Virus record (IMG/VR): IMGVR_UViG_3300009425_000016
Coordinates: 1 to 64,000 of that record
From: a virus
Length of the DNA stretch: 64,000 bases
Reading direction: 5' to 3' (one strand)
How positions within the stretch are numbered: position 1 is the stretch's first letter; each line of letters starts with the position of its first letter. Positions 7,750 through 38,137 of this stretch are shown in pieces. The notes under the pieces are model-generated. The model saw only the letters and a list, made by a program, of their open reading frames with translations. It did no database searches and was not told where the DNA came from. A program made the position numbers and the translations under genes.

Positions 7750-7761
7750 TGGTTACATTTA

Positions 7762-7769: not shown

Positions 7770-7775
7770 TAAAGT

Positions 7776-8168
7776 TTAAATTTCTATTCGATTCCATCCG
7801 TTTCCTACTACAGGAACTGGAATTGATTGAACAATTGCCCATCGTTCATCAGTCCATGTTCTAGTAATTTTAAAACCAGTTTTATCGACTGTCAATTCTT
7901 GTATGTGTTTTTCATACAGATAAGAATTCCAGGAATCATCTATCTCGTCGCCCCCTTTTGCTATCGTCCTAATTTCTTTTACTCCAGCGCCTTCTATTAC
8001 TTTTTTAAATTTCGTATTAATTCCTAAAGTCTTAGATTGGGAGAGCTCCGCATCGAATGTATTAACTATATGAGGATTCGCCTTCTCAAATGCCATCTTT
8101 GCTTCCACGACAGTTGAATAAGTAGTTCCTGTAGTATTTGTGAATATGACTATGGTTGTTACTGACAT
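7776..8168 (-). CDS. Small paralogous protein B (130 aa), unknown function
   Basis: A paralogue of the product of 7291-7728, recognised by the same order of elements: an N-terminal beta strand (VTTIVIFTNTTG), an alanine/lysine helix (EAKMAFEKANP), an acidic centre, and the end block TRTWTDERWAIVQSIP then GNGWNRIEI. Its stop precedes the tandem late promoters of the copy, so the pair looks like a duplication in which the downstream copy gained its own promoters. The ribosome site is AAGAAG, a few bases before the ATG. No enzymatic motif is seen. Confidence 0.65.
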   Translation of the reverse strand: MSVTTIVIFTNTTGTTYSTVVEAKMAFEKANPHIVNTFDAELSQSKTLGINTKFKKVIEGAGVKEIRTIAKGGDEIDDSWNSYLYEKHIQELTVDKTGFKITRTWTDERWAIVQSIPVPVVGNGWNRIEI

Positions 8169-8170
8169 TT

Positions 8171-8779
8171 CTATTCTTCTTCGTATATAATATAGTCCTT
8201 ATATTTGTTGATACTTCTTTTTAAAATTTCATAGTGTTTTTGTTTATTAACCCAAAAATGAGTAAAAAGTATAAATCTATCAGGATCATAATTACCACCA
8301 TGAGTTGTATCTGTACTTCGTATAACACACCAATCAGTATCTATTGGCATTTTAGCTAAAACTGTTTCTCCATTATTTTTTTGAATATAAGGATTTTTAA
8401 TATTGTTATCATATTGTATTGTCATTCGATAGCCACATGGTTGTAAACTTTTTTCATGTTTCCATAAATCTGCGTTTTTATCTGGTGTTAAAAAATCAAT
8501 ATGCATTTCAGTAGCTTTTAAATAATTATTAATTCTAACATTAACTAAATGATCAATTGGTAAATTTTTATCAATATATTTTGTTAGAGAAGATTCTTCA
8601 ATCCACGATGATTTACTATAATTTTTATTTGTTGTAGTAAATTTTTGATATTGAAATGCTTGAGCACCTGTTCCATCATCCGGCGGTGAGTCACCAACAA
8701 AATTATCTATAAGATCTTTTTTATATTGATATTTTGGAATGTCGACTGGCATCCATAAAATATTATCAAAATTATTCAT
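8171..8779 (-). CDS. Putative 2OG-Fe(II)-like oxygenase (HxD protein)
   Basis: A 202-aa protein with the spacing of a double-stranded beta-helix oxygenase. EMHIDFL gives an HxD pair (H93/D95), IRSTDTTHGG a distal histidine (H160), and DPDRFILFTHFW an arginine 8 residues later (R168) that could bind the 2-oxoglutarate carboxylate. This H-x-D...H...R pattern is typical of non-haem iron dioxygenases that hydroxylate small molecules or protein side chains. Sequence outside the motif is not close to a family I can name, so a metal-binding cupin without oxygenase activity is the alternative. It is the last gene of the long minus-strand run before the small paralogues. Confidence 0.6.
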   Translation of the reverse strand: MNNFDNILWMPVDIPKYQYKKDLIDNFVGDSPPDDGTGAQAFQYQKFTTTNKNYSKSSWIEESSLTKYIDKNLPIDHLVNVRINNYLKATEMHIDFLTPDKNADLWKHEKSLQPCGYRMTIQYDNNIKNPYIQKNNGETVLAKMPIDTDWCVIRSTDTTHGGNYDPDRFILFTHFWVNKQKHYEILKRSINKYKDYIIYEEE

Positions 8780-8788
8780 ATTTCTTTC

Positions 8789-9370
8789 TTAACATTTTTT
8801 AAATACGGTCATAAAATGCCGTTGTTGTCCTTCATCTTCAGTAAGTATGGAATCAACTTTTTCTGAAGAAATAATATCCAAATATTCTTGATCTCTCCAT
8901 CCAAATGCTGTAAGAGGATCATCATTTCCATGAGCTGATACTGATGCTACCATCATTCCATTTTTTTCTAAAGAATCCGAAAAGAATTTTGCTGTATCTG
9001 ATTGAAGATGTGATTTGTTAAATCCTCCAATAATTGTTATACATTTATATTTTCTTGGTAATGGAAATTCTTTCATATCATGCAAAATTATGTCACGGTA
9101 ATTGGTCGCCTCAAATGTATCAATCATTTTTTGATTAACATCATATCCATCTATAATATAATCATTATTATTAAAACCAATACCAATCTGACCATTACCA
9201 CATGCAACATCTGCTATTTCAGTACCTAATTCAAAATTCTCATTTACCCAATCACATGCATAACGTATAGGACCTTCCATCCAACCAACCTTCGTGCACC
9301 AAGTGTGATAATCCCAATCCTTATATAATTCTTCAACACTTTTACTATAAACTTCATCAAGCCAAGTCAT
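8789..9370 (-). CDS. Class I SAM-dependent methyltransferase
   Basis: A 193-aa protein with motif I (IADVACGNGQIGIGF, residues 52-66), then IIDGYDVNQKMID, where the D after GY binds the SAM ribose. The motif II/III strands (RDIILHDM) follow, and YKCITIIGGFNKSHLQ is at the motif IV position. The length fits a minimal small-molecule methyltransferase. The N-terminal tail (WLDEVYSKSVEELYKDWD) resembles the cap of methyltransferases acting on small metabolites. A good AAGGAAT ribosome site precedes the ATG. It lies between a 2OG-like gene and the 41-codon oxygenase stub, downstream of the ANL gene. Confidence 0.85.
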   Translation of the reverse strand: MTWLDEVYSKSVEELYKDWDYHTWCTKVGWMEGPIRYACDWVNENFELGTEIADVACGNGQIGIGFNNNDYIIDGYDVNQKMIDTFEATNYRDIILHDMKEFPLPRKYKCITIIGGFNKSHLQSDTAKFFSDSLEKNGMMVASVSAHGNDDPLTAFGWRDQEYLDIISSEKVDSILTEDEGQQRHFMTVFKKC

Positions 9371-9373
9371 ATT

Positions 9374-9499
9374 TTATTCCTTTATAATAGTTGTGTAGTC
9401 AAATGCGACTCTCCATAATTCTCTAGACTTATTCACAATATGTGAACGTCTATGTATAGTGTACAATTGATCCATAATTAATAAATCACCTACTTGCAT
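9374..9499 (-). pseudogene. C-terminal stub of a TauD-like 2OG-Fe(II) oxygenase (41 codons)
   Basis: A short frame whose ATG directly follows the TAA of the ANL gene (TAAATG) and ends at TAA 9374-9376. It reads MQVGDLLIMDQLYTIHRRS and ends in RELWRVAFDY plus a short tail. This resembles the last strands of TauD/clavaminate-synthase-like dioxygenases, where 'GDxLxxDNxxxxHxR' holds the distal iron-binding histidine and '(L)xRVxxD' the 2-oxoglutarate arginine. The N-terminal ~200 residues, including HxD, are absent. It could be decayed debris of a gene replaced by the ANL gene, or a small retained peptide. The frame is intact, so translation is possible. Confidence 0.55.
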
Positions 9500-10924
9500 T
9501 TATATTTCACTATGTGGTTTAATACTCAATGTTGATATTATTTCATTAGGAAAATCATTTAACAAACTTACTAATTTTGATTTTTGATGTTTCGTTTTTC
9601 CACCATAATACAATTTATCAGTAACATGATATATATTATGTGGTCGTTTATATTCTTGAAGTTCTTCAAACCGTTTAGCAAGATTATTAATATCAGCCGA
9701 TCCTGTATAAATTACATAATGTATTTCATCACGAGAACAACTTGATACCTCATTAACTCCTGGTTCTAGTAATGCTTGAGCCTCTACTAATCCTGTGTAA
9801 ACTTTTACGCCATCTTTCATAAAAATTACATCATCAAAAACTCTACCATCATAATACCATTTTCCGTTCGCAATTTTCATTTTATCACCATCAGTCATCC
9901 AATCATTAAGTCCATACTTGTACCACAATACGCCCCCATCATCTACTTTTAATTCTCCCCAATAATAAGTTTTATAAAAACCATAAAAATTATCTAATGA
10001 ATCTCCTGGCCTATATTCAGATCTTGTATGACAATCCGCTTCAGTGCTCGCCATTACATTATAAATTACTTTCCATTTAAACTTTTTCTCAATATCTCTA
10101 ATAATATTTTCTCCCGTATGCCCTCCAGCAAATTCCCAATAATCTACCTCAAAATCAAAATCATCAGGACATGCATCAAGTAATCTTTTTACAGCATTAG
10201 GATAAGACGCCACAAGATTTGGTTTCACTTTTTGAAATTGTTCTGGAATATTATCCACTGTTTCATTTATAAAATGAATTGTTCCGCCTGTATAATAAGC
10301 TCTAGCTAAATTCCAAACAAGATAGGTTGATTCAAATCCTCCATTTTGTAACATTATGGGTCTTTTATTATTAAAAAGTTCAGGGGCTACTTCTTTCAAA
10401 TGTCCGGTCATAGAACCCATTGTACACCCTCTCAATGTTTCCCCATTAACATTAGCTTGAGCATGATCCTCATAATCCCAAAAAAATGGCCATAATTCAA
10501 ATATGGGTTTTACTGTAGTACCACTAGTCATTCCTCTATACATCTCATTGGGGTGTAATAATGTGGGAGGAATTTTGCCCTCACTATCTGGTTCATGTAA
10601 CATTTTAATTTTATTTGAACGTATAACACAACTGGCATTACTGTCACCAATTAAAGAATTTAATTCTATATTTGATTGATCTGCTGAAGCTTGACTAGCT
10701 GATCCACCATTTTTTATACTAGCAAGAATCCATAACATATCATCCAGAGTTTTAACTTCTTCAGCTACTACAAAAACAACATGAGGTCCCAATCCGTGTT
10801 TTTTTAAAATTTCAATTTTTTCATCTAACATGTTATGTAAATTTTTCCATGTAACATGTTCTGTTGCTAAACTTATGAATACATCATCTTCATTAAGCGG
10901 TGCTTGATATTGTTTTAGTGTCAT
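9500..10924 (-). CDS. Adenylate-forming enzyme (ANL superfamily ligase)
   Basis: A 474-aa, near full-length acyl/aryl-AMP ligase. The core motifs are in order. MTSGTTVKP (132-140) is the phosphate-binding loop (A3), NVMASTEADCHTRSEY is the A5 'xxTE' block, and NDWMTDGDKMKIANGKWYYDGR is A7-A8 (the ribose-binding D and the hinge). The C-terminal GGKTKHQKSKL has the shape of A10 with its catalytic lysine. Such enzymes activate a carboxylate with ATP, then pass it to CoA, a carrier protein or an amine. Divergence at A3 ('TTVKP' instead of 'TTGxPK') means activity is not certain. It overlaps the upstream gene by ATGA. The second, shorter ANL protein (11997-12677) is two genes upstream. Confidence 0.88.
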   Translation of the reverse strand: MTLKQYQAPLNEDDVFISLATEHVTWKNLHNMLDEKIEILKKHGLGPHVVFVVAEEVKTLDDMLWILASIKNGGSASQASADQSNIELNSLIGDSNASCVIRSNKIKMLHEPDSEGKIPPTLLHPNEMYRGMTSGTTVKPIFELWPFFWDYEDHAQANVNGETLRGCTMGSMTGHLKEVAPELFNNKRPIMLQNGGFESTYLVWNLARAYYTGGTIHFINETVDNIPEQFQKVKPNLVASYPNAVKRLLDACPDDFDFEVDYWEFAGGHTGENIIRDIEKKFKWKVIYNVMASTEADCHTRSEYRPGDSLDNFYGFYKTYYWGELKVDDGGVLWYKYGLNDWMTDGDKMKIANGKWYYDGRVFDDVIFMKDGVKVYTGLVEAQALLEPGVNEVSSCSRDEIHYVIYTGSADINNLAKRFEELQEYKRPHNIYHVTDKLYYGGKTKHQKSKLVSLLNDFPNEIISTLSIKPHSEI

Positions 10925-11370
10925 ATTTTCTCTTCAGGATAATACCACCATCCAGCATCTGGTTCATATTTAAATATCGATATTCCCACTCTTTCAGTTT
11001 CAATATTTTCTATTGAATGTTCTATACCAGCATTAAACTTGTGCCATTTTTTTTCTGGTATACATGTTCTATAAAGTTCTTTACCTTTGTCCCACCACAC
11101 AGTTTCTACATTGCTGCCACCTGCTTGTAAAATATAATTATAATTTGTAGTCCTATCAACATCAATATGTTTGGGTATACCATTTCTTAAAATTTGATAC
11201 TTGAAATTATCACATTCAGGAAATAAATGTTTTAGAAAATTTGTTAACTCATCTTCACAATAATAAATTCCGTATATTTCTTTATTTCCTGGCCAAATAT
11301 TTTCTTTTAATTTTATTGATTCAGTATCTAAAAAACAAGGTGGGCCCGGTAAATCTAAAAATTCAATCAT
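10921..11370 (-). CDS. Putative small 2OG-Fe(II)-like oxygenase or cupin (149 aa)
   Basis: A compact beta-rich protein with GIPKHIDVDR giving H68-x-D70, NYILQAGGSN as the next strand, KFNAGIEHSIE with a distal H118, and TERVGISIF with R127 nine residues later. This is the iron/2-oxoglutarate pattern of small aspartyl-hydroxylase-like dioxygenases, and it matches the layout of the product of 13802-14434. It overlaps both neighbours (8 bp and ATGA) in the ANL region. At 149 aa it is near the minimum size for the fold, so a non-catalytic cupin remains possible. Confidence 0.6.
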   Translation of the reverse strand: MIEFLDLPGPPCFLDTESIKLKENIWPGNKEIYGIYYCEDELTNFLKHLFPECDNFKYQILRNGIPKHIDVDRTTNYNYILQAGGSNVETVWWDKGKELYRTCIPEKKWHKFNAGIEHSIENIETERVGISIFKYEPDAGWWYYPEEKI

Positions 11371-12016
11371 TTTTTCTTATCTCTATCAAATTTTTAAGAG
11401 TTTCATATACATACATTTTATATTCTTCATCTGTACCCTCAAATAAATCACGCATAACTGCATCTTTATTTTCTTCTAATCTTTTTGCATGAGATGTGAG
11501 ATAATTTGGTCTAAAATCTGACAAGTTTAAATAAGCTGGAAAGTTTGCAGTAGTTTTTAAATAATGCTCAACAACAACATTTATATCATTTGGTATTATT
11601 TCTTCTATCCTAGCATTAGGAAACGTTGCTTTTATTTTTGACTTTGTTACATGCACAGGATACATTATATATTTTCCACTTTCCATTATTTCTAAACCAC
11701 CTCGTGCCTCAAACAGTTTTTCAAATAATGGATAATATTCATCAATATCATTATAGTAAGGTTCAATTACATTAAATAATGGGGGCAACATTTTGCCGTC
11801 TATCATTCTATCAAAATGATTTGGAGCAACTAATCTGCGTGATATTGAATATTCATTGATTGATGTATCAAGTGGAACTATACCATTTTCTTTACAAGAA
11901 TACCAATATACGTCATCATTATCATTAGCAAGATTTCTGCCCAATCTATGTCCACCCGCACCTTGTTCAAATGCAATGAATAAAAATTTATCATGTTCAA
12001 ATAAGTCTACCATCAT
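11363..12016 (-). CDS. Hypothetical protein (217 aa)
   Basis: I do not recognise this family. The N-terminus has a hydrophobic strand and glycine-rich turn (FLFIAFEQGAGGHRLGRN, residues 11-28). This is where sulfotransferases and some kinases have a phosphate-binding loop, but the residues do not fit a standard P-loop. The middle is rich in acidic and aromatic residues (EPYYNDIDEYYPLFEKLF), and the C-terminus is helical and charged. The first two codons are both ATG, so the start is 12016 or 12013. It overlaps the minimal ANL gene by 20 bp and the HxD gene by 8 bp, so it belongs to the same translational unit. Confidence 0.6.
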   Translation of the reverse strand: MMVDLFEHDKFLFIAFEQGAGGHRLGRNLANDNDDVYWYSCKENGIVPLDTSINEYSISRRLVAPNHFDRMIDGKMLPPLFNVIEPYYNDIDEYYPLFEKLFEARGGLEIMESGKYIMYPVHVTKSKIKATFPNARIEEIIPNDINVVVEHYLKTTANFPAYLNLSDFRPNYLTSHAKRLEENKDAVMRDLFEGTDEEYKMYVYETLKNLIEIRKND

Positions 12017-12677
12017 AATACATTCTATTATTATTTAAATAAACTAAATCATTTGTATTATACCAATCATCATAGATACACGTATCTCCCCTTACAAATA
12101 ATTTATCATCTTCAATCTTCCAATCACAATAATACGTATCACCCAATATTGTTTCTTTTCTTTTAACTTCTTGTATTTGATCCAAATTATAAAACACTTT
12201 ATTGATTGTTAGGGGTCCTATTTCACTCATGCCCCAATTTGCCATAAATGTTGCTCCTTTGTTTACAAATAATTCTATAATATACCATTCAACAGGATTG
12301 GAACCACAAGTAATCCATATACCCTTTAAATTTAAATCCTTAAATCCTTTTGTTTTAATAATTGCTTTTGCATGATCTGGAGCTAAATGAGTATGAGTAT
12401 ATTTGTTTATTTCTTTAACAAATTTATAAGCATTAAATTGTTCAACTGTTACCTCTGCACCAATACTAAAGGCGGGTAAGGTTTGTGCCAATAATCCTCC
12501 TGCATGCTCCATTTTACATACAGTATAAATTTTAGATTTTTTTGTAATTTGTTGACATTCTATTGCTATCTTATTACATGCCTCTAAATTTTCTGGAGTC
12601 CTAAAAATATGTTTTTGTATTCCTGTTGTACCACTACTTTTAACAAAAACTCCTTCGCTTAACATATTCTTGTACAT
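11997..12677 (-). CDS. Minimal adenylate-forming (ANL) protein, truncated at both ends
   Basis: Only 226 aa, against 450-600 for the family, but with the central adenylation motifs. FVKSSGTTGIQKHIFRTPEN (residues 11-30) is a good A3 loop, ATFMANWGMSEIGPLT is A5, and LFVRGDTCIYDDWYNTNDLVY is A7. RMYYDGRLI at the very end is the start of A8, where the frame stops. The N-terminal subdomain (A1-A2) and the entire mobile C-terminal domain with the A10 lysine are missing. The ends are clean, and the gene overlaps both neighbours (38 and 20 bp), so it looks retained rather than decaying. It could form AMP esters poorly, bind ligand only, or be completed in trans by the 474-aa ANL protein. Confidence 0.8.
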   Translation of the reverse strand: MYKNMLSEGVFVKSSGTTGIQKHIFRTPENLEACNKIAIECQQITKKSKIYTVCKMEHAGGLLAQTLPAFSIGAEVTVEQFNAYKFVKEINKYTHTHLAPDHAKAIIKTKGFKDLNLKGIWITCGSNPVEWYIIELFVNKGATFMANWGMSEIGPLTINKVFYNLDQIQEVKRKETILGDTYYCDWKIEDDKLFVRGDTCIYDDWYNTNDLVYLNNNRMYYDGRLI

Positions 12678-13179
12678 TTAATTTCCATATAGTTTGTTCT
12701 GTATGATATAATATAGTATCACATACTTTATCAAGTATTCCTTGTTTTGCTAATAAACCCATTAATTTATGATTTCGTAATGCCTTACCACTATGCTCAT
12801 TGGAAATATTTGTAGTTATATACAAATTATCTGTATGACAATAATCTATATAAACTGGGATAAAATCTCTCCATGTTATTGTATTCCAATTACCTTTATT
12901 CAGGCCTTTATAAGGACTTGCTCCGGGTAATTCACATCCTCGAAAATTAATCCTCCAACCATTTTCGTTTATTTCTGGTAAGGGATGACAACCTCCAACC
13001 GCAACAATTTCATCATCCTTGATAGCACAATAATATTCTCCCCAATCTTTACACCATTCTAATTTCATTGCTTTAAAAGAAGAGTTATTTGTATACCCCA
13101 AGTCTTTACATTTATCACAAAATATTTGGAGTTTGCTATGTAGTTGATTAGTGATTGGTTTTATATTGAAAATCCCCAT
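12640..13179 (-). CDS. GNAT-like N-acyltransferase (tentative)
   Basis: The 179-aa start is chosen at the ATG inside the stop region of the PP-loop gene (MGIFNIKPIT). This gives a 19-bp overlap, and the longer frame has no ribosome site. The middle resembles a GNAT core. YYCAIKDDEIVAVGGCHPLP is beta-2/beta-3, NLYITTNISNEHSGKALR resembles beta-4 and the region before the pyrophosphate loop, and NHKLMGLLAKQGIL could be the following helix. The 'RxxGxG/A' acetyl-CoA loop is not clear. GNATs acylate amines of amino acids, sugars or peptides, which would suit a pathway with two ANL enzymes. Confidence in the family is modest; confidence that it is a gene is high. Confidence 0.5.
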   Translation of the reverse strand: MGIFNIKPITNQLHSKLQIFCDKCKDLGYTNNSSFKAMKLEWCKDWGEYYCAIKDDEIVAVGGCHPLPEINENGWRINFRGCELPGASPYKGLNKGNWNTITWRDFIPVYIDYCHTDNLYITTNISNEHSGKALRNHKLMGLLAKQGILDKVCDTILYHTEQTIWKLNVQEYVKRRSFC

Positions 13180-13805
13180 GCTCTTTCCTGACACCACCAA
13201 CATATACCACAATGTCCTAATTTTGGGTCTTTAACATTTTGTGCTTCCCATTCACATGATCTAGTATATACAAATAAACTATCTATTAAATTATATTCTT
13301 TATATATTTGGGCTAGTTTCTTTTTATCTATATTAATCCAGGGTGTATATGCTTTATTATTATTACGTAAAACGTCTTTCATAATAGTAGGATCTCTGTC
13401 TACTTCTGTAACTTCTTCTATAAATGTATCAGTAATAGATTTTGGTGGATTAGCAGTAATTCCTGTATAGAAAATATTTATTAATTTATTTTTTCTATAA
13501 TAATCTAATTTATCAAATATATTACTTAATGTTTGATGGTCACAAAATGTACTATGATGTTCTATGTTTATATTTCCGGTTAATTCGATACATTTTTGAA
13601 TAACATTATTAGTTGTTGTAACATTTTTAAATTGTCTTGCTTTATTTCCAGTAGATAAAATATAGATTTTATCATTAGAATATTTCATTAAAAAGTATAA
13701 AAGCAAAGAACTATCAGCTCCGCCGCTACAACTTATACCTATAGGACCTTCATATATTTTTAAATTGACTCCGGATAAATTTAATTCTTTTTTAATTAAA
13801 TTCAT
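13161..13805 (-). CDS. QueC-like PP-loop ATPase
   Basis: A 214-aa protein with the PP-loop SGGADSS (27-33) near the N-terminus. The C-terminal zinc-type cluster is C184 (TRSC) with C199/C202/C205 (HCGICWWCQER). This pairing of PP-loop and 'C...CGxCxxCxxR' is the QueC signature (7-cyano-7-deazaguanine synthase, usually 220-230 aa). In QueC the ATPase adenylates a carboxylate and converts it to an amide, then a nitrile. No QueD, QueE or FolE candidate is seen in the window. It may instead do a QueC-like carboxylate-to-amide/nitrile reaction on another substrate, or supply preQ0 with host enzymes. It overlaps both neighbours (ATGA and 19 bp). Confidence 0.8.
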   Translation of the reverse strand: MNLIKKELNLSGVNLKIYEGPIGISCSGGADSSLLLYFLMKYSNDKIYILSTGNKARQFKNVTTTNNVIQKCIELTGNINIEHHSTFCDHQTLSNIFDKLDYYRKNKLINIFYTGITANPPKSITDTFIEEVTEVDRDPTIMKDVLRNNNKAYTPWINIDKKKLAQIYKEYNLIDSLFVYTRSCEWEAQNVKDPKLGHCGICWWCQERAWGFSI

Positions 13806-14434
13806 GCCTCTATTAGATTTGTTACTGTTGACACAGATTCTTCTGTTAATTTAATATTCATTATTAATACAATATGATCATTCACATCATTGGCATTAAA
13901 TATTGTATGCCGTTTACAAGTATTTAAAAAATATAAACTACCATAAGACCAATGTAATACATTATCATATTGATATATAAAATATCCCCCATCTAACGGA
14001 TTACATACTAGTAAAGGGACAATTAATCTAAAACTATCTATTGTAGATCCCATATTATCTACATGACTTGGAAAAAATCCGCCTGGTTTTAATTTTAAAA
14101 TATGAGATCTAAATAACCATTCTTTAAAAGGATCACAATATAATTTTAATACATCATAAACAGGTGTTGGTACAATAAAATTAGATTCAGTTATATTTGT
14201 ATTATTTTCTTTATTATATTCATATAAACTATCTAAATCAGGCCCAGGTCCTAAATTGCCGTCTAAATTAGTTACACTCAATCCCCAACGATTTATATGT
14301 TTTCTAGGATTATATTTTGTCCAATTATCATCAAATTGGATTAATCTTTCTAACATAGTCTTCGAATTTTGATATATGTTTAATTTAACTTGATCCCCAT
14401 ATGCTGTTAGAGTATTAAATAATTCAAAACTCAT
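13802..14434 (-). CDS. Aspartyl/asparaginyl beta-hydroxylase-like 2OG-Fe(II) oxygenase
   Basis: The start is taken at ATG 14434 (MSFELFNTLT), overlapping the rSAM stop by 11 bp, rather than the longer frame. In the 210-aa product, LKPGGFFPSHVDN gives H124-x-D126. SFRLIVPL after it has the arginine seen in the AspH-type pattern HxD...RxxxPL, SYGSLYFLNTC is the next strand, and KRHTIFN supplies distal H176. This is the double-stranded beta-helix of Asp/Asn hydroxylases, which hydroxylate residues in proteins or free amino acid derivatives. It is the neighbour of an rSAM gene and a QueC-like gene, in the most crowded part of the operon. Confidence 0.75.
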   Translation of the reverse strand: MSFELFNTLTAYGDQVKLNIYQNSKTMLERLIQFDDNWTKYNPRKHINRWGLSVTNLDGNLGPGPDLDSLYEYNKENNTNITESNFIVPTPVYDVLKLYCDPFKEWLFRSHILKLKPGGFFPSHVDNMGSTIDSFRLIVPLLVCNPLDGGYFIYQYDNVLHWSYGSLYFLNTCKRHTIFNANDVNDHIVLIMNIKLTEESVSTVTNLIEA

Positions 14435-17925: not shown

Positions 17926-17931
17926 AATTAA

Positions 17932-24700: not shown

Positions 24701-25992
24701 TCATTAACCTGCCAACCCTCATAATTATTTAAAATGTCCCATCTCCAATATTGATGTCGCTGTCTATTTTTTACAAATGTTTCCCAATGTTGTACAAAAT
24801 TATCTAATCCTCCCCATCTAGTACATTCTTCTGTCCATAATTCATCAAATTCTTCAATATCATCACAAAATTCTATTAAACTATCCTCATTATTTTTCAA
24901 ATCTCTAAATTTTATATTAACCAATTCATTAAATATATCTTTAAATGTTTGTTCTTTTGGATTCCAATATTCTGATAATATTTTCTTAAAAGATAAAGAA
25001 GGTCCACTTATATCATAAAATATAACATTTTCTTTTCCTGAATAATTAAAAGTTTTTAAAATATGATTTCCAATAAATCCAGAAGATAAAATTACATAAT
25101 TATCAAATTGTTTTGGTGCGTTTATTTCTTCTAATAATTCATAAAAATTATTTTCAGGTATTTCTGTTGGATATGGTTCTGAATTAAATGCATATAATTT
25201 ACTAGAATATCCTCTAGTTGTAAGTGAAGTTTGATATCTAACCTTAGTTTCCAGTTCATTAAGTAATTCTTTATCTTTTTGTACTTCATCTAAATAAAAA
25301 AATTCTTTACTTTCTCTTATTTTATAATTAAATCCTTCAACATTATATCCATATTTAAAAACTGTATTTAAAAAGTTCCACCCCCATCCCATACGTGATC
25401 CCTTTTCAATTTTTTTCATTTTTAATTTATAATCTCTCGGCTTTAACCATAGAGGTGTATAATCATCATGAAAATCTTCAACACATCTTTCAGGTTCATA
25501 TAATTCTTCTATTGTCAAAATACTAGAAGTGTGCAGGTCAGGGCAATGAATATCTTTATAAATTTCCAAATTTAAAAACATCATTTGAGGATGTATACTA
25601 TACCAATTTCTATTCAAATGAATTCTACTTTTAGCATCATTGTCAACAATATGACAAAGCATAGCTGTATTTGGAGAAGCTTCTGCTTGTTCAATCAAAT
25701 AAAAACACGTATCATGACTAAGACGATGTCCCGGTTTTTGAATTAATGCATATTTCCTCTCACTAGATAATGCATCTTTGATACATTCTTGTAAATCATT
25801 ATTTTCACTGTAATATATGTTTGCATGAATGTTGGCCAATTGTCCTTGAAGTTTCGATTTTGTAAACTGATCTGCAAGATCAAGTAAATATGGATCATCA
25901 ATCTCATCTTCCCAATCAGAAAAAGTTCTCCAATAGCAAAAATAAATTTCTTTTTCAGCTATCTCATTTAATACTTTATTAGAATTTAACAT
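21754..25992 (-). CDS. 1412-aa fusion: partner module plus two twitch radical SAM domains
   Basis: Three parts in one uninterrupted frame. Residues 1-~500 resemble the stand-alone 390-aa protein of 16753-17925. Residues ~520-950 are a complete twitch rSAM: C527 (NFCILPWIHM), C545/C546, C599/C602, core C646-x3-C650-x2-C653 (DNKCNLACRMCSAG), LKVTGGEPTVNHK. Residues ~970-1412 are a second complete copy: C977 (GFCILPWMHLS), C995/C996, C1052/C1055, core C1108-x3-C1112-x2-C1115 (GNKCNLACSTCNPD), YILGGEPTIIN. All cluster cysteines are intact in both. The second copy is closest to the product of 29930-31309 (shared CILPW/CALPW, STR, CCTANxS and CxKCxKEEE blocks). Overlaps on both sides (14 bp each) place it in the operon. 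Confidence 0.9.
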   Translation of the reverse strand: MLNSNKVLNEIAEKEIYFCYWRTFSDWEDEIDDPYLLDLADQFTKSKLQGQLANIHANIYYSENNDLQECIKDALSSERKYALIQKPGHRLSHDTCFYLIEQAEASPNTAMLCHIVDNDAKSRIHLNRNWYSIHPQMMFLNLEIYKDIHCPDLHTSSILTIEELYEPERCVEDFHDDYTPLWLKPRDYKLKMKKIEKGSRMGWGWNFLNTVFKYGYNVEGFNYKIRESKEFFYLDEVQKDKELLNELETKVRYQTSLTTRGYSSKLYAFNSEPYPTEIPENNFYELLEEINAPKQFDNYVILSSGFIGNHILKTFNYSGKENVIFYDISGPSLSFKKILSEYWNPKEQTFKDIFNELVNIKFRDLKNNEDSLIEFCDDIEEFDELWTEECTRWGGLDNFVQHWETFVKNRQRHQYWRWDILNNYEGWQVNEINNLKGNTFIWVSNVYANEYALWEHKNYSNIFKQLKKLISKLNDQVYVYGFLPDIKLDDDDSERIYNSFGRKVLQGEIYTKKFLQENINIPTKNFCILPWIHMTSSVAGWYRVCCDSNKNLRVGSDSKDVTSQDALHANVATIKDAFYSPEMNKIRKQFLNNERPNICSTCWKREDMGIASLRIAMNGRFADNIDTFNLKKPKLKYLDIKYDNKCNLACRMCSAGSSDQHQKELLIQVNDGKRIPNHFDYGEYENNNKYKKELSHRLSSHAEKPFLEQDVISALPELEVLKVTGGEPTVNHKFLNAVDYAIKNDYAKNIVLDLTTNGTKFNSDLLEKISHFKFCRFRISIDGTDKLYDYIRYPFNWDMLNKSVNLMFSHFKEKEYLQNRVSVGFSIVAQPYNIFNLDDIYKWADELYKKYYTNLSEHDGPDAMIDVAVDFQMIPQSSELNSEFIDHDLLKLALEKFEANTKEVVGIKPRLKFFQNFVKNTIVNNIKDLKHYQLKKTTRFYDNIRNQQYKNHLASEMIDYLDNAPPAPWKKEDSGFCILPWMHLSTRTTGNMQLCCTANSSSDDEHPQIGCNRKDDGQLVNLKHDNWKDYWNTNYMKNVRSEMIKGNKPRECQKCYKEEEVGYNSKRIWENKKWKKKLDYNSIVWHTKDDGEAPAKIHYVDLKLGNKCNLACSTCNPDDSSFWIKDWTKMKNSNISSDLQNKLSWSKGKDQNGGYNWYKNEQTWKELSEQPISDAYILGGEPTIINEFKDFIKNSPKTTNLRFNTNAEEIDDKLFSMLKRLSLVEIAVSLDGVEKRHEWLRYPSKLDTTMQNLIKYNNFAKNNEHIKINIDTTASIFNIMHIPDFIKWKLTQDEISEINKWPEHGGMIGIHFLHSPNFLSVKCLTKEYKEKISDKYNDFYKWLEENFEYYDRVLEKPNGIKKLKSLIEFMWSEDQSNLLPQTFEYIQNLENIRQLNFSIIFPELKELYNEYK

Positions 25993-26632
25993 TATTATAT
26001 CCGTTTATGAAATTTTTCCAACTTCTTCTGACAATAGGATTCCAAAATTCTGAATCCATATTACATCCATTAGTAAGAATATGATAACGTGGCTTATCAC
26101 TATTATTAATACACTCATGGTTCCATACATTAGAAAAAAGCCACGTAGATCCATTATCAATTGGGATATTGCCCCATCCTGATACATGAAAATCACAACC
26201 TTTTGGATGTTGAATAGAGAAATGTAGGATACTTGGGCCCATTATATCAAGGGTAAGTGGTTGGTCTTCAATATCTTTATCATTATGTAAAAAAATTGAA
26301 CCTCCCGGATCAATTTTCATAAATCTTGTTCTTTCATGAGATAATATTCCCGCATGATTTTGCAAAAAGTCTTTTGTTTTTGGACATTTATCCGCAATAC
26401 TTGTCCAATCATATCTAACATGTTCTAATTCTTCATGATAAACACTGCCGAATTCACCACCAACTCCATGTAATGCTAAACTAGACCAATTCTTTCCACT
26501 ACTTTCTCTATATGGTATCCATTCATCTAATTGTTCAACTTCATGTAAAATGTCTTCCCAACGAAATTGAAAGTCAAGCATTAACCACGGCAATGCACAA
26601 TTATTTATTGCGTAACTATAATCTTTATTCAT
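25979..26632 (-). CDS. Aspartyl/asparaginyl beta-hydroxylase-like 2OG-Fe(II) oxygenase
   Basis: A 217-aa protein in which RTRFMKIDPGGSIFLHNDKD gives H116-x-D118 in the usual AspH setting (a KxxPGG turn just before the metal ligands). NGSTWLFSNVWNHEC gives distal H172, and KPRYHIL provides R182 for 2-oxoglutarate. The start of the protein (LPWLMLDFQFRWEDILHEVE) is typical of the helical lead-in of this family. It would hydroxylate an amino-acid side chain or a small molecule. It lies between the orphan SPASM gene and the 1412-aa rSAM fusion, overlapping both. Confidence 0.78.
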   Translation of the reverse strand: MNKDYSYAINNCALPWLMLDFQFRWEDILHEVEQLDEWIPYRESSGKNWSSLALHGVGGEFGSVYHEELEHVRYDWTSIADKCPKTKDFLQNHAGILSHERTRFMKIDPGGSIFLHNDKDIEDQPLTLDIMGPSILHFSIQHPKGCDFHVSGWGNIPIDNGSTWLFSNVWNHECINNSDKPRYHILTNGCNMDSEFWNPIVRRSWKNFINGYNNVKF

Positions 26633-26933
26633 TTTTTTTATCTATAAAAGTGTCTCTATTTTTTAATTCACATGTCTGTTTACATTTTTTAACAGGTTCA
26701 TCTGAACTCCATGAATTTATAATACCATTAAATAATGGTCCGTCTAATATTTCTTGTATTGTTTGATTATGTAAACTATTATCATATTGTTGATTTAATT
26801 CACCAAATAACGTTTTTGGGGAATGCCCCGCCGCCATATTTAAAGATTCAGCATTTACATAACAACACGGTATTAATTCACCTACATGATTTATAAATAT
26901 CCTTTTTTGATTTCCATATTTACATTCTATCAT
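26625..26933 (-). CDS. Stand-alone SPASM-type iron-sulfur domain (102 aa)
   Basis: This small protein lines up with only the C-terminal third of the 353-aa rSAM protein of 28890-29951. Matching landmarks are MIECKYGNQKRIFINHVGELI with INCKAIDKKEIFVTAEGHVF, then PCCYV with PCCWT. TIQEILDGPLFNGIINSWS matches TIKEIVNGPFFKAIEDSWS, and VKKCKQTCELKN matches LKVCANKCGIGF. The cysteines (C4, CC, CxxxC) are those expected to hold an auxiliary cluster. No rSAM motif is present. The rSAM half without a SPASM domain is encoded two genes upstream (28300-28890), so the two are probably halves of one ancestral gene and may work as a two-chain enzyme. Confidence 0.8.
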   Translation of the reverse strand: MIECKYGNQKRIFINHVGELIPCCYVNAESLNMAAGHSPKTLFGELNQQYDNSLHNQTIQEILDGPLFNGIINSWSSDEPVKKCKQTCELKNRDTFIDKKNE

Positions 26934-28303
26934 ATTACTTTCTTTATACTATCCAAAAAATAATCCGCTAGCCATTGATTTGACTTTTTTCCAGGATGAC
27001 TTAAATCTCTTGCATAATCATCATAAGCAGAAGGAAGTTTATTTTTTTCAATGTATTCAATTACTTGTTCTCTCGTAGCCTGTTTTCCATCTTCAACAAA
27101 ATTCTCTATCATTTCTGCCATCTCACTAATTGATGTAACATTTATCTGTGCATCTACTTTATTAAAAGGTATCTCATAATCATCAGCCAAAAAATAATGA
27201 AAGGAAGCCTTATTTTCATAACAAACACCTTTAACAGCATTAATATTTCTTGATGCATTTAATTTATTCATATATATATTTCTGGACATATGATTAACCA
27301 ATTGTTTTACATATTGATCAAAATATATATCCCCCTCTTCACCCTGATGAGATCCGAACGGATTTGTACAAATATCAAATTCAAATAAGTCAGTATATTC
27401 AGTTTTATGTTGAATAAAAGAAACATCTTCCCACCAGTAAGGCTCTTTCTGGAGCTCCAATGTCCAATTAGATTCAAAACCCTTTAATATAAGATATTTA
27501 AGTAAATTTTCATTAAAATGAAAAGTACGAGTAATATTAGGACCTAAAAATACTACATGTTTCGGTTTTAAAAGAGGTATTAAATATTGACTAAAAAGAT
27601 ATGCTTGATCATGACTACCTCCTGATAGACCTACATTATAGTTTTTTAATCCCAAAGTTTTACTAAGTATATTAGAAAAACGATCTTTTTCTGCTAAACC
27701 TATACCATAAACATAACTACATCCTAATATTAAAATACTATCACCTTTATTGTCAAAATCAAATTCATCAGACCTAAATCCCCAACTATTATGTCTATAC
27801 CAAGGCACTTCTTCACATTCAGTCTGTAAATAATTTATTTGTTTTTTTGATAATGTATATGGCCAATCCTGGCCATCATGAATCATTTTAATTTTCTCAA
27901 ATTGTTCTGTATATCCACACATATCCAGTACATATTTGCCGTAACTGGAATTTTGAAATTTATCATATCGCTCTTTATTATCTTGCCCCATATAAAGATA
28001 ATCACCATTACGTCTATGCCAAGATGTATGCAAAAATGGTATAATTTGTTTTTCTGTAAAATCATGATTTTGTAAATATCCTATAAAATGAGTCAATTCT
28101 GTATCATGAACATTAAAATTTGTTAAATCAAATTCTCCATTATCAATTCTTTGACTAATTTTAGAAATCTTTTCTTCTGAACCATCTTTAATAGGGCATT
28201 TAGGTAAAATATCATCTTCCCATTCTAAACAAAATCCTTTAGTTTTGAAATCTTTTTCTAATTTAAACTTAGCGTTATGGGCATTTAGATGTTCTTCACT
28301 CAT
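26930..28303 (-). CDS. SGNH-hydrolase-like protein (457 aa)
   Basis: The second half has the SGNH blocks. ILILGCSYVYGIG has the block I serine (S196), YNVGLSGGSHDQ is block II, and FLGPNITRTF has the block III asparagine (N256). Near the end DLSHPG gives the block V Asp/His pair (D433, H436). The ~180-residue N-terminal region (helical, with WHRRNGDYLYMG and WYRHNSWGFRSDEF) is not part of the hydrolase core and may recognise the substrate. SGNH enzymes cleave or transfer esters, commonly acetyl groups on glycans. It is the gene that separates the rSAM half from the SPASM half, with ATGA overlaps on both sides. Confidence 0.78.
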   Translation of the reverse strand: MSEEHLNAHNAKFKLEKDFKTKGFCLEWEDDILPKCPIKDGSEEKISKISQRIDNGEFDLTNFNVHDTELTHFIGYLQNHDFTEKQIIPFLHTSWHRRNGDYLYMGQDNKERYDKFQNSSYGKYVLDMCGYTEQFEKIKMIHDGQDWPYTLSKKQINYLQTECEEVPWYRHNSWGFRSDEFDFDNKGDSILILGCSYVYGIGLAEKDRFSNILSKTLGLKNYNVGLSGGSHDQAYLFSQYLIPLLKPKHVVFLGPNITRTFHFNENLLKYLILKGFESNWTLELQKEPYWWEDVSFIQHKTEYTDLFEFDICTNPFGSHQGEEGDIYFDQYVKQLVNHMSRNIYMNKLNASRNINAVKGVCYENKASFHYFLADDYEIPFNKVDAQINVTSISEMAEMIENFVEDGKQATREQVIEYIEKNKLPSAYDDYARDLSHPGKKSNQWLADYFLDSIKKVI

Positions 28304-28890
28304 TTCACTTCTCCACTACCTGTTCTATGTGAATATATTTTTCTAAATCTTTTAAATCCTTCAACTTTAGACATATTCTCTGCCTTCTTTATTAAATGTT
28401 CATTATGATCAAATACAATAAATTGCCATGTTGCATTGCCGCCCGCACCTATAAATGCTCTATAATTTTCCTGCACCTTTTTAAAATTAGATCCAATTCT
28501 ATATTTTTCCAATGATTTTTGATCTGTTCCATCAAGACCAAAAAATACAGATAACTTTCTTCTACCCAGATCTTCCCAGAATTTAATAGTTCGAGTAGAT
28601 CCATTAGTAGCAACATTAACATCTGAAAAATCTAAAAAATAATCTACTATGTCTATAAATTCCGGATGAGTAGTGGGTTCATCGACTGATCCACAAAAAT
28701 TTATAATTTTCAAATTGGGTAAATATCCTTTCGGAATCCATTTTTTTAAATCTTCAAATTTAATATAAGACTTATTAAGTAATGGTCCAACTTTATCATG
28801 CATTTCTTGACGAAGACATCCTGGACATTTAATATTACAAAAACTAGTAAGTTCTATATCAATCCATTCTATGGTATTTTTATTCCACAT
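28300..28890 (-). CDS. Radical SAM domain protein lacking its SPASM half (196 aa)
   Basis: The cluster motif is C18-x3-C22-x2-C25 (SFCNIKCPGCLRQ), at exactly the same positions as in its neighbour 28890-29951 (C18/C22/C25). IINFCGSVDEPTTHPEF is the SAM loop. SVFFGLDGTDQKSLEKYR and WQFIVFDHNEH are also shared (FSIDGLEDTNHLYRQ and WDFIVFKHNEH in the neighbour). The protein ends at SHRTGSGEVK, where the paralogue continues for about 150 residues into linker and SPASM domain. The stop overlaps the SGNH start by ATGA. The missing C-terminal domain appears as the separate 102-aa gene 26625-26933. Confidence 0.88.
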   Translation of the reverse strand: MWNKNTIEWIDIELTSFCNIKCPGCLRQEMHDKVGPLLNKSYIKFEDLKKWIPKGYLPNLKIINFCGSVDEPTTHPEFIDIVDYFLDFSDVNVATNGSTRTIKFWEDLGRRKLSVFFGLDGTDQKSLEKYRIGSNFKKVQENYRAFIGAGGNATWQFIVFDHNEHLIKKAENMSKVEGFKRFRKIYSHRTGSGEVK

Positions 28891-29951
28891 TATAAAAATT
28901 GTTCATTATATGCATCAAATCCTATTCCACATTTGTTAGCGCAAACTTTAAGTTTTCCATCTTTAACACTGGAACATGACCAAGAGTCTTCTATGGCTTT
29001 GAAAAACGGGCCGTTAACTATTTCTTTTATAGTATGTTTTCTGAGACTGATATTTTCATAATCTCCTATTAATTTCCAAATAGGTGCTTCGCGGGGTTTC
29101 CAATACCATTTATATTGTTGTCCCGCTGTCCAACAACAAGGAAACACATGTCCTTCTGCCGTAACAAATATTTCCTTCTTATCTATTGCTTTACAATTAA
29201 TAGGTGTTGTATCATAATATGCATCCATGCTACCATGTTCAGTAACTAAATCTTTTTCTTTTTTTAGTGCAACATTAACAAACTCTAAACTGGGTTTTTC
29301 TAACTTCTGAGTATTTTCGCCTTTTCGATTTGTTGCTTGATGGACGTCTTTACCTTTATGTTGAACAGTCGAAAAGAAACGTCCTGTTTTTTTGACTTGA
29401 AATTTTTCAAAGCCCATATCCATCGCCAATTGTCTTGCCTCATCTACCTGATGTTCATTATGTTTAAACACTATAAAATCCCATTTAGCATGACCACCTC
29501 GATCAATAAACGCCTTGGCATTCTCCATTACTCTTTCCCATTTAACTTTTTGCCTATATAAATGATTAGTATCCTCTAAACCATCTATACTAAATGTTAC
29601 AACTACATCTATATCTGCTAAATCTTCCCAAAAATATTCTGGTTTAGCGCCTCCATTGGTATTCATACCTAACCACATATTGGGATTAGCATTTCTAAAA
29701 GATCTAAATCCCTCGATTGCATAATTGCTTATGCATGGATCACCCAAATTACCACACATATACATGGAGTCCAACTGTTCTACAAAATGCCAAGGAAACA
29801 TTTCATAATAATCCATAGAACTTAACATTGCATTTGTGAGATAGGGATTATCTTTACCACCATTTATATTACGGTCACATTGAGGGCAAGCGGCATTACA
29901 TCCCTGAGTAGGTTCAATATGCACACTTTTTATTTCATCATATCTATACAT
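28890..29951 (-). CDS. Radical SAM/SPASM protein (353 aa)
   Basis: A complete, compact rSAM-SPASM enzyme. The core motif is C18-x3-C22-x2-C25 (QGCNAACPQCDRN). MYMCGNLGDPCIS follows at the SAM-loop position (GNxGDP rather than GGEP), then VVTFSIDGLEDTN and WDFIVFKHNEHQ. The SPASM part starts around INCKAIDKKEIFV, with PCCWTAG and CANKCGIGF supplying cluster cysteines. SPASM enzymes frequently modify ribosomal peptides, but many other substrates are known. It overlaps the upstream twitch rSAM by 22 bp and abuts the truncated paralogue (1-bp overlap), so the two paralogues arose side by side. Confidence 0.9.
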   Translation of the reverse strand: MYRYDEIKSVHIEPTQGCNAACPQCDRNINGGKDNPYLTNAMLSSMDYYEMFPWHFVEQLDSMYMCGNLGDPCISNYAIEGFRSFRNANPNMWLGMNTNGGAKPEYFWEDLADIDVVVTFSIDGLEDTNHLYRQKVKWERVMENAKAFIDRGGHAKWDFIVFKHNEHQVDEARQLAMDMGFEKFQVKKTGRFFSTVQHKGKDVHQATNRKGENTQKLEKPSLEFVNVALKKEKDLVTEHGSMDAYYDTTPINCKAIDKKEIFVTAEGHVFPCCWTAGQQYKWYWKPREAPIWKLIGDYENISLRKHTIKEIVNGPFFKAIEDSWSCSSVKDGKLKVCANKCGIGFDAYNEQFL

Positions 29952-31309
29952 AATTCTGGAAAAACTCTTTCAAATTGTTTATGTGGTCTTAATCTATTTA
30001 AATGTGAAATATATTCTTGAAATTCGGGAAGTCTTTCAGACCAATCTTCATCATCCATGAAATTTAATAGTCCTTCATATCTTTTAATTCCATAGGATGA
30101 ATTTGCCCAATCATCAAATTCTATATTTTCTACACCGGTACATAATTTCCAATTATCTTCCATCCAAGGAAAAAACTCTTCTTCATATTTCTCTCTAATT
30201 TTATATTTTAATTCTTTTGGTATTATTTTAACATTTAATTGTGGTGGCCAATATGCCAAATGACAATTGATCATTCCTGCTCCCCCAGGCCATTTATTTA
30301 TTTTCTTATATCCTTGCTGAACTTTCCAAGATATAAATTCTGGAAGATAATTAATACTCAATGCCATAATAGTTGTTGCGGTTGTTACTGTAATATTATC
30401 ATCAGTCTGATCCATTAATTTTAAATTCTTTTCAATAATTTTCCATCTACTAGGATAGCGAATATAATCATTATATTTTCCCCAACTATCTATTGAAAAA
30501 TGAAATATTACATGTTTAAATTCACTCCACAATTTGAATAATTTATCTGGTAATTCGACTCCATTTGAATTATATCTTAATTCAATTTTAGAAGCATAGC
30601 CCATTTCAATTACTTTTTCAAGTAAAGTATAATGTTCCTCTATTATTGTACTTTCTCCTCCGGCAAAATACAATTGATAAATGTTGGGTATTTGACTGTA
30701 TAAATCTTCCCAAAAATGAGGACTTATTTTATGCCAATTATACGTTCCTCCATCTTCATTTTTTTTCCATTGACTAGTATCTTTTAATCTTTCATTTTTT
30801 ATTTTAGGATAAAAATCTAACCATTCTTTATTCCATCCAGAAGAATCATTTGGAGAACACATCACACAAGCTAATTGACATTTACTTCCTAATCGTAAAT
30901 CAATATATCTAAGTTTAGGTTCAACAGAACCATCTTCATTTGTATTTTTTATCAATTCATCTAAATCATAAATTTCTCCCCATTTATTAGTTTCCCAAAT
31001 TCTTTTGGGAATATGACCAGAATCCTCTTCTTTAAAACATTTAATACATTGAGGAGGACGTTCACCTTTCATCATCATTAATCTAGTACGCTTCATATAA
31101 TCATTATTCCACGCATCTAATAATCGAGTAGTGTTTAAATTAGCACATTGACCATCCTCATTTCTTATATTTGCCTTTGTTCTTATAGAAGAATTTGGGT
31201 CTTGAACAGCAGACGCATTCGCAGTACAACATACTCTCATATGTCCATTAGGTCTTGTTGATAAATGTATCCACGGCAATGCGCAGAAAGTTGGGGAAGG
31301 ATAATCCAT
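29930..31309 (-). CDS. Twitch-type radical SAM enzyme, first gene of the operon
   Basis: I take ATG 31309 (MDYPSPTF) as start, with GTGAG a few bases upstream. A GTG at 31321 would add four residues. In the 459-aa product the N-terminal cysteines are C9 (TFCALPWIHLSTRP), C27/C28 (RVCCTANAS) and C88/C91 (PQCIKCFKEED). The core motif is C144-x3-C148-x2-C151 (GSKCQLACVMCSPND, with Gln in the position where the others have Asn), and YFAGGESTIIEE binds SAM (GGES). The protein is collinear with the second rSAM unit of the 1412-aa fusion. The ATAAATA motif at 31344-31350 would make it the first gene of the long minus-strand run. Confidence 0.9.
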   Translation of the reverse strand: MDYPSPTFCALPWIHLSTRPNGHMRVCCTANASAVQDPNSSIRTKANIRNEDGQCANLNTTRLLDAWNNDYMKRTRLMMMKGERPPQCIKCFKEEDSGHIPKRIWETNKWGEIYDLDELIKNTNEDGSVEPKLRYIDLRLGSKCQLACVMCSPNDSSGWNKEWLDFYPKIKNERLKDTSQWKKNEDGGTYNWHKISPHFWEDLYSQIPNIYQLYFAGGESTIIEEHYTLLEKVIEMGYASKIELRYNSNGVELPDKLFKLWSEFKHVIFHFSIDSWGKYNDYIRYPSRWKIIEKNLKLMDQTDDNITVTTATTIMALSINYLPEFISWKVQQGYKKINKWPGGAGMINCHLAYWPPQLNVKIIPKELKYKIREKYEEEFFPWMEDNWKLCTGVENIEFDDWANSSYGIKRYEGLLNFMDDEDWSERLPEFQEYISHLNRLRPHKQFERVFPELCIDMMK

Positions 31310-31320
31310 AAATTGTCTCA

Positions 31321-31327
31321 CTAAATA
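31321..31327 (+). promoter_or_regulatory. Putative late promoter CTAAATA for plus-strand cassette
   Basis: CTAAATA on the plus strand, 35-41 bases before the glycosyltransferase start at 31362, in the short divergent gap. It is the same variant as that before gp13, close to the T4 late consensus. Confidence 0.45.
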
Positions 31328-31343
31328 TTAATAACTATAATTA

Positions 31344-31350
31344 TATTTAT
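31344..31350 (-). promoter_or_regulatory. Putative late promoter ATAAATA for the rSAM operon
   Basis: ATAAATA on the minus strand, 35-41 bases before ATG 31309. It is the only promoter-like motif I found at a gene junction upstream of the minus-strand run that continues to about 8.2 kb. In such AT-rich DNA the motif alone is weak evidence; position supports it. Confidence 0.45.
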
Positions 31351-31361
31351 GCTACTAAAAT

Positions 31362-38132: not shown

Positions 38133-38137
38133 TTTTA

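Follow-up and report, generated by a model that had tools for sequence, protein, structure and literature searches.

A recurring radical SAM core in an operon of a T4-type phage may point to an undescribed pathway that decorates a surface sugar or protein

What does a 23-kb operon packed with biosynthesis-like genes make in the genome of a T4-type virus, and is it one system at all? The operon lies in the IMG/VR virus record IMGVR_UViG_3300009425_000016, of whose 75,184 bp we analysed the first 64 kb (the window; proteins are named by w and their start coordinate, e.g. w29930); judged from its T4-type relatives, this is probably a virus of bacteria and of marine origin. An earlier note on this DNA had proposed a single undescribed system of overlapping or abutting genes. 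The packing was borne out: 21 minus-strand open reading frames (ORFs) form an operon at 8171-31321, 17 of its 20 junctions overlap and 19 are no wider than 10 nt, the exception being a gap of 129 nt at 9371-9499. The right end proposed by the note, 31309, is an in-frame ATG four codons inside a GTG-start ORF that reaches 31321. The idea of one fixed 23-kb system was not supported by comparison, as the close relatives L152 and L154 carry other accessory genes; what recurs is a core, found both in viruses and in Bdellovibrionota.

Exact-peptide scans with w9500 and w21754 recovered only the window's own population (5 and 4 loci, respectively, at 98-100% identity), and profile scans were therefore used. 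A profile scan of IMG/VR with the N-twitch units of the radical S-adenosylmethionine (rSAM) enzymes gave at least 569 related stretches, of which 80 were kept; the 79 viral loci outside the window's population fell into 40 dereplicated groups. Scanning of genomes added 46 loci, many from metagenome-assembled genomes (MAGs) of Bdellovibrionota. By sequence comparison across these loci, the core is composed of the rSAM families w29930, w14424 and w28890 together with w32619, to which related loci usually add a protein of predicted GT-A fold, F2. The core members in the window are the following.

29930-31321, minus strand: w29930, N-twitch rSAM enzyme of core family A2 and first gene of the operon, with the motif CQLACVMC and 396 bits to NCBIfam NF033640
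28890-29951, minus strand: w28890, core rSAM/SPASM enzyme with matches to PF04055 and SPASM
14424-15455, minus strand: w14424, rSAM enzyme of core family A10, the most conserved
32619-33512, plus strand: w32619, core protein of predicted class I methyltransferase fold, transcribed divergently from the operon

Around the w29930 family, the gene order in many of the 40 groups was GT-A-fold protein (F2/F6), w32619 family, often a protein of 74 amino acids, w28890 family, w29930, further N-twitch rSAM enzymes and w14424 family. Among the 79 viral loci, which hold the w29930 family, the w28890 family (at least 400 bits) was present in 59, the w32619 family in 60 and F2 in 49; the w32619 family was also found in 11 of the 46 genome loci. 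Mean column identity was 61% for the w29930 family in 16 viral sequences and 66% for the w14424 family in 15 sequences of viral and genome loci. The conserved 74-residue protein between core genes (8694-8918 of L029, and relatives) has no assigned function and occurs in 17 of the 40 groups, provided that its three families do not overlap.

Since a median distance of 7-8 kb separates the two rSAM genes w29930 and w14424, and many loci are truncated, counts within 10 kb are undercounts, and whole records were used to measure their linkage. In contigs of at least 60 kb, the w14424 family was present in 16 of 22 found by w29930, and the w29930 family in 31 of 36 found by w14424 (E of 2e-238 or better; a 32nd contig, matching at 1e-114 only, was not counted, and the w14424-seeded contigs L234 and L239 were left out because the w29930-seeded set already contained them). 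By comparison, among 11 T4-type contigs chosen by gp14 (those of at least 31 kb from 80 gp14 loci, L256 being left out as a member of the window's population), the w29930 family was in none and the w14424 family in one. Fisher tests against this baseline gave 2.5e-7 for w29930 and 7e-4 for w14424, values weakened by the fact that the long contigs were not dereplicated and that the baseline contigs are mostly shorter (31-190 kb). In 290 genomes from the phylum of G002, a Bdellovibrionia MAG, the w14424 family occurred in 17 and the w29930 family in 15, all 15 shared, and G110 and G228 had w14424 without w29930. After removal of the 11 seed genomes the counts were six and four of 279, all four shared and within 3 kb (Fisher 6e-8), with the reservation that the 279 may include genomes of other genome-scan loci and that the A10 profile includes rows from such loci. 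Random and independent occurrence of the genes, which the earlier note had named as grounds for abandoning the system, is thus not what was found for the core: w14424 and w29930 are strongly linked in viruses and in Bdellovibrionota.

The three core rSAM families on Bdellovibrionota contigs were approximately 50-70% identical to their viral relatives, and the bacterial relatives of F2 and w32619 were less similar, at approximately 36-54%. Those bacterial copies that were closely examined sit among chromosomal genes: at L128, pheT precedes the w29930 family and genes of the trmD, RNase HII and rRNA-methyltransferase-like kinds lie upstream, and at L123 the F2, w29930, w14424 and w28890 families stand in a row with a gene for a UvrD/PcrA-type helicase nearby. 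In a midpoint-rooted tree of 37 w14424 rows, the 19 viral rows formed one set (100/99), into which two MAG rows also fell, and the other 16 genome rows lay outside it. The w14424 genes inside the viral set that come from MAGs are those of L103 and L105, binned as Gammaproteobacteria and Acidimicrobiaceae; these may be phage contigs misbinned into MAGs.

How the rest of the operon behaves is seen best in the closest relatives. L152 and L154 match the window at 92-100% identity in the neck-side proteins w1905, w2754 and w3558 but have different accessory genes; in L166 and L171 the neck-side proteins are 71-80% identical and w14424 is kept at 84-85%. For w8171, w8789, w9500, w10921, w11363 and w16753, no relative was found in the 79 viral and 46 genome loci, though some of these six proteins do have counterparts in L152 and L154, which are close kin of the window. 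Because relatives swap accessory genes on the neck side of the island and keep the core, we regard the 23 kb as a conserved core plus an exchangeable accessory set. Tailoring enzymes of other kinds occur on related contigs, namely a carbamoyltransferase (L150) and an amidinotransferase-like start (L104). Such turnover between L152, L154 and L166, in an island known to be hypervariable (PMC7029224), would also be expected if a recombination hot spot had merely collected auxiliary genes that are unrelated to one another and share no product. We hold that explanation to be improbable: it is contradicted for the core pair by the linkage in viruses and bacteria, and it fits poorly with domain fusions and with the L031 contig, where the homologues of 11 window genes (w28890, w28300, w26625, w25979, w21754, w19305, w17932, w15452, w14424, w13802 and w13161) are collinear at 58-88% identity with a few other genes between. 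On the same contig the w29930 homologue (61%) is relocated beside w21754; two further 19.9-kb pieces of it held no structural protein of the query set at E 1e-8 over half the length.

All nine rSAM domains counted in the earlier note carry CxxxCxxC; eight were above the Pfam cut-off, one of these only with its neighbours, and the domain of w17932 was below it, at 20 bits. Six are N-twitch units (in w15452, w17932, w19305 and w29930, and two in w21754), in proteins above the curated cut-off of 170 bits for NF033640, which w14424 (49.6 bits), w28300 (29.9 bits) and w28890 (39.6 bits) did not reach. In addition to the core enzymes, the operon encodes the following.

28300-28890, minus strand: w28300, short rSAM protein (PF04055, E 3.8e-9)
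26625-26933, minus strand: w26625, SPASM-only protein (PF13186, E 1.9e-5)
21754-25992, minus strand: w21754, N-terminal domain of about 505 amino acids with no assigned function, followed by two N-twitch rSAM units (NF033640, 568 bits, two stretches)
19305-21767, minus strand: w19305, N-twitch rSAM unit fused to an aminotransferase-fold (pyridoxal phosphate, PLP) domain (NF033640, 336 bits)
17932-19308, minus strand: w17932, N-twitch rSAM enzyme (NF033640, 251 bits)
15452-16756, minus strand: w15452, N-twitch rSAM enzyme (NF033640, 263 bits)

Twitch and SPASM domains are typical of peptide-modifying rSAM enzymes. The sole PDB match of the w29930 family was the peptide maturase SkfB (E 6.7e-5), and the w14424 family matched the anaerobic sulfatase-maturating enzyme (E 2e-4) and others, including viperin-type enzymes. 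These relatives, together with the Asp/Arg-type hydroxylases of the operon and the fibre region that adjoins it, bring in the strongest competing explanation, a pathway like those of ribosomally synthesized and post-translationally modified peptides, in which the rSAM, hydroxylase and aminotransferase domains would modify a virion protein, such as a fibre, at some of its residues and so alter adhesion or stability. Four ORFs, found in L037, L091, L093 and L120, combine matches to the w21754 N-terminal domain and to the hydroxylase family, a fusion that also speaks for it. Against it, no PqqD-type domain was found on the 75-kb contig, itself a fragment, and the conserved 74-residue protein was found neither in the window nor in the small bacterial locus L123. 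In agreement with the earlier note, no precursor peptide was recognized in the one operon gap (9371-9499), other precursor types lying outside the model used and the contig being a fragment. We consider the peptide pathway somewhat unlikely. A protein with QY[ST]GQY-type repeats adjoins the island at 36014-37108; it had no match in phage records with the low-complexity filter on, and we rejected it as a general substrate, its Tyr-rich repeat being present only in the window's own population among the loci checked.

A role in antiphage defence was likewise set aside, with only weak viperin-type matches among ten proteins; w14424 scored 38.7 bits against the viperin/pVip equivalog NF038283 (cut-off 180 bits) and 38.6 bits against PADLOC pVip.

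The remaining genes of the operon are listed below.

26930-28303, minus strand: w26930, SGNH-hydrolase-like by eye, with relatives in 8 of 79 viral loci
25979-26632, minus strand: w25979, Asp/Arg-hydroxylase-type oxygenase (PF05118, Asp_Arg_Hydrox, E 2.5e-12)
16753-17925, minus strand: w16753, weakly like the N-terminal domain of w21754 (20% identity, E 0.013)
13802-14470, minus strand: w13802, HxD oxygenase of the Asp/Arg-hydroxylase type
13161-13805, minus strand: w13161, QueC-like PP-loop ATPase, with relatives in 23 of 79 viral loci
12640-13212, minus strand: w12640, GNAT-like according to the earlier note only, with an uncertain TTG start and relatives in 2 of 79 viral loci
11997-12677, minus strand: w11997, short AMP-binding (ANL) protein (PF00501, E 1.3e-10)
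11363-12016, minus strand: w11363, sulfotransferase-like by eye only, with no Pfam match
10921-11370, minus strand: w10921, small HxD oxygenase-like protein, by motif only, with no Pfam match
9500-10924, minus strand: w9500, relative of AMP-binding (ANL) ligases (PF00501, E 1.4e-8)
9371-9499, minus strand: TauD-type oxygenase gene remnant; sister contig L012 has the intact gene (293 amino acids; PF02668, E 6.4e-9)
8789-9370, minus strand: w8789, methyltransferase-like (PF13649, below cut-off)
8171-8779, minus strand: w8171, HxD oxygenase-like, by motif only, with no Pfam match

The gap holding the TauD remnant corresponds to approximately 885 nt in four sister contigs. Several assignments of the earlier note held. 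The PLP-aminotransferase-like domain is the C-terminal 331 residues of w19305, in which D174, S199, S201, K202 and G212 are invariant in 14 relatives; we take D174 and K202 to be the invariant Asp and the PLP lysine of fold type I aminotransferases. Its sole PDB match at 0.01 was a valine-pyruvate aminotransferase (E 1.5e-4), a value used in place of an apparent match to HisC (E 5e-12) that came from a profile holding two HisC-like rows of 15-16% identity. Of the HxD oxygenases, w25979 was identified by Pfam and w13802 by iterative search (searches from both retrieved two annotated Asp_Arg_Hydrox proteins of Pelagibacter phage Mosig), and the HxD...H of w8171, w10921 and w13802 was read by eye. 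The methyltransferase call for w8789 is only partly supported, its PF13649 match of 23.5 bits being below the curated cut-off of 27, and neither the GNAT-like call for w12640 nor the SGNH call for w26930 is backed by a Pfam match.

Two of these assignments bear on further explanations. Both proteins called AMP-ligase (ANL) relatives do match PF00501, and with the aminotransferase fold they could serve to build a small diffusible molecule of the natural-product type, made late in infection; in L083 a gene for an acyl-carrier-type protein (18242-18577; PF00550, E 1e-9) directly follows the w17932 homologue. We think such a product quite improbable, given that the ANL genes are not core (in the 79 viral loci w9500 has no relative and w11997 one), that no carrier protein was found on the 75-kb contig, a fragment, as the earlier note had also reported, and that no exporter was recognized in the operon. 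The QueC-like ATPase, also upheld (w13161 matches PF06508 at 26.8 bits, cut-off 22), is part of the operon and has relatives in many viral loci, and with the transferases it could instead point to a hypermodified base in phage DNA or RNA. This we regard as very improbable: w13161 fails the QueC equivalog TIGR00364 (18.5 bits, cut-off 150.3), no match to PTPS/QueD was found on the same fragmentary contig, the late-type motif described below and the fibre location do not suit it, and the core is also on bacterial chromosomes.

Upstream of the operon, transcribed in the opposite direction, lie w32619 and the following genes.

31362-32114, plus strand: w31362, GT8-like glycosyltransferase candidate with a DxD motif
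32059-32634, plus strand: w32059, probable paralogue of w32619
33505-34140, plus strand: w33505, probable relative of w31362, with matches shared in iterative searches

The predicted model of w32619 (pLDDT 74) gave a Z score of 14.8 to OxaG, with a root-mean-square deviation (rmsd) of 3.0 over 177 aligned residues; on this model w32619 is a class I SAM methyltransferase fold. In L035, a protein of 694 amino acids (6578-8662) has many LAKLT...W-type repeats before a w32619-like domain. Iterative search with w32059 gave locus counts identical to those of w32619, 60 viral and 11 genome, and the two are probably paralogues; a comparison of w32059 with family A8 was discarded as evidence for this, being circular (A8 contains w32059). 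In w31362, D89 and D91 are invariant in 18 sequences and the match to LgtC has an E value of only 0.45. The model of F2, the partner in related loci, has a pLDDT of 90.6 and resembles B4GALNT1 (Z 11.0, rmsd 2.8, 135 aligned) and ThuS (Z 10.6), and cytidylyltransferases also appear at Z 10.0-10.4; by sequence F2 had no match in the PDB (best E 0.84). As modelled, F2 is a GT-A fold and a candidate glycosyltransferase.

Signals for transcription were sought over the same region.

31344-31351, minus strand: late-promoter-like motif CATAAATA, approximately 23 nt upstream of the start codon of the first gene, w29930

The minus strand of the window has eight [TC]ATAAATA sites. Five of these precede a gene start by at most 80 nt, two of the five lying before the same gene (binomial 3e-5). 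We take this motif to be the late-promoter type of T4 and cyanophages, which would place expression of the operon late in infection. Terminator-like sites numbered four at 7000-26900 (shuffles 5.4 ± 2.6), two of the four on the minus strand inside genes, and eight at 26500-38700 (3.7 ± 1.9), none of them on the minus strand inside the operon. Promoter-like sites were not clearly above shuffles (167 against 147 ± 12 at 7000-26900, and 82 against 79 ± 12 at 26500-38700). The G + C content was 0.291 for the operon region and 0.342 for 36014-64000.

What, then, would the core make? We favour, tentatively, a late-expressed and horizontally exchanged biosynthetic island whose core makes a glycan-like scaffold for the virion or host surface and whose accessory genes vary its decoration. 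In this scheme w29930, w14424, w28890 and the methyltransferase fold, in many relatives with the GT-A-fold transferase, would build a chemical scaffold that stays constant and is probably glycan-like, and this group would then be attached to some structure on the surface of the virion or of the host envelope. The changing accessory enzymes (hydroxylases, TauD, aminotransferase fold, AMP ligases, QueC-like ATPase and methyltransferase, and elsewhere carbamoyl- and amidinotransferases and a desaturase) would vary the decoration, which might act in receptor recognition or in the exclusion of other phages. A heavily tailored sugar-like group fits best because of the predicted GT-A and methyltransferase folds and the carbamoyl- and amidinotransferase, hydroxylase and aminotransferase-fold genes, and a surface role fits because the operon is placed beside fibres; from these we infer the glycan-type product, the surface target and the role in recognition or exclusion.

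Several observations weigh against this scheme. F2 was not found in the window, where the glycosyltransferase candidates w31362, w33505 and w34801 have motifs and weak matches only, and no nucleotide-sugar gene was recognized there except one epimerase at 3558. Polysaccharide genes beside the bacterial copies are inconsistent, with a GT2-family gene at L117 and none among the tested genes at L123 and L128. The solved relatives of the core rSAM enzymes include the peptide-modifying SkfB and sulfatase-maturating enzyme. The core itself, beyond the w14424-w29930 pair, looks looser, because with w14424 as seed (77 loci) w32619 was within 10 kb in only 12, F2 in 4 and w28890 in 21; and in six of the 22 long contigs found by w29930 the w14424 family was not seen.

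Stated for the core, the same proposal is equally tentative: w29930, w14424, w28890 and the methyltransferase-fold and GT-A-fold partners could form a single, so far undescribed pathway whose chemical product is fixed; it would have passed a single time between Bdellovibrionota-like bacteria and tailed phages and spread among viruses (on contigs of up to 400 kb), where it would be the late-used base of an exchangeable surface decoration that combines oxygen-sensitive radical chemistry with oxygen-dependent hydroxylation.

The setting of the operon is one already known. To its left are neck and tail genes (a tail sheath stabilizer and the gp14-like head closure protein w1905, 1905-2750, which among the 25 of 2325 matches listed is 37-42% identical to phages of several hosts), and to its right a VrlC-like protein and baseplate genes, with virion structural protein matches at 37122 and 38649. 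The VrlC-like w41295 (41295-47306) is 31% identical to the VrlC region of Mosig over 905 amino acids (E 6e-107). The operon thus occupies the T4-type fibre-to-neck gap, as the earlier note had it, between VrlC and the neck gene gp14, which is where the host recognition cluster of pelagimyophages is defined; in 5 of the 40 groups (L056, L064, L077, L080/L081 and L098), VrlC-, gp15- or gp14-like proteins are encoded no more than 10 kb from the w29930 family.

In the text available to us, PMC7029224 describes this hypervariable cluster, from VrlC to gp14, in T4-type marine phages (pelagimyophages and cyanomyophages), with rSAM cassettes and with glycosyltransferases, for which the window has candidates, and reads it in terms of host recognition and O-chain change; that text describes no conserved rSAM core, partners or bacterial relatives. 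The T4-like Campylobacter phages CP220 and CPt10 (PMC2853527, as far as available) have an interchangeable cluster of 10-12 genes that is likewise rich in rSAM genes, with five of them, a putative amidinotransferase and nucleotide-diphospho-sugar-transferase-like genes alongside. When 50,697 phage records were searched with a w14424-family query from L037, 18 matched; the matches covered at most 46% of the query, and at most 33% in Campylobacter phages. The T4-like marine genome TARA_ERS488813_N000010 has 12 rSAM genes, treated as Fe-S proteins in the accessible part of PMC5332604. On the fibre side of VrlC, Pelagibacter phage Mosig EXVC030M (MT647606) has annotated molybdenum-cofactor-type (rSAM-like) enzymes, Asp_Arg_Hydrox, N-acetyltransferase, methylase, TauD and aminotransferase, and carries relatives of w32619, w31362, w26930 and the PLP domain; however, it was not among the records matched by the w29930 or w14424-family queries, and w28890 matched it at only 25.7% over half the query. 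NF033640 is a broad N-twitch rSAM subfamily named without function, of which the w29930 group is a tight subset.

Contrary to what the earlier note had proposed, the island type is therefore not undescribed, but for the conserved rSAM core shared with Bdellovibrionota our searches of an open-access library, which lacks most subscription papers and preprints, showed no description. T4-type islands rich in rSAM genes have been known since 2010 (PMC2853527), in the text available without a function or a defined unit; the present comparison supplies such a unit, made up of two rSAM families whose linkage holds in viral contigs as well as on bacterial chromosomes, together with recurrent partners. 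Its function can now be tested, because Bdellovibrionota MAGs hold a small chromosomal version (L123) and the isolate Mosig holds relatives of w32619 and of some of the accessory genes. Should the product turn out to lie on a surface, the answer bears on host recognition by phages or on the exclusion of rivals.

Two minor observations concern neighbouring and distant genes. In the 255-kb Vibrio phage K566 (L009), rSAM genes distantly similar to w21754 form two clusters at 16711-34078. In the window, at 4722-7275, a TctA transporter gene (PF01970, E 4.7e-79) adjoins a gene of 371 amino acids with no Pfam match in the phage island; tctA is known from SUP05 viral contigs (PMC4164917, in the portion available).

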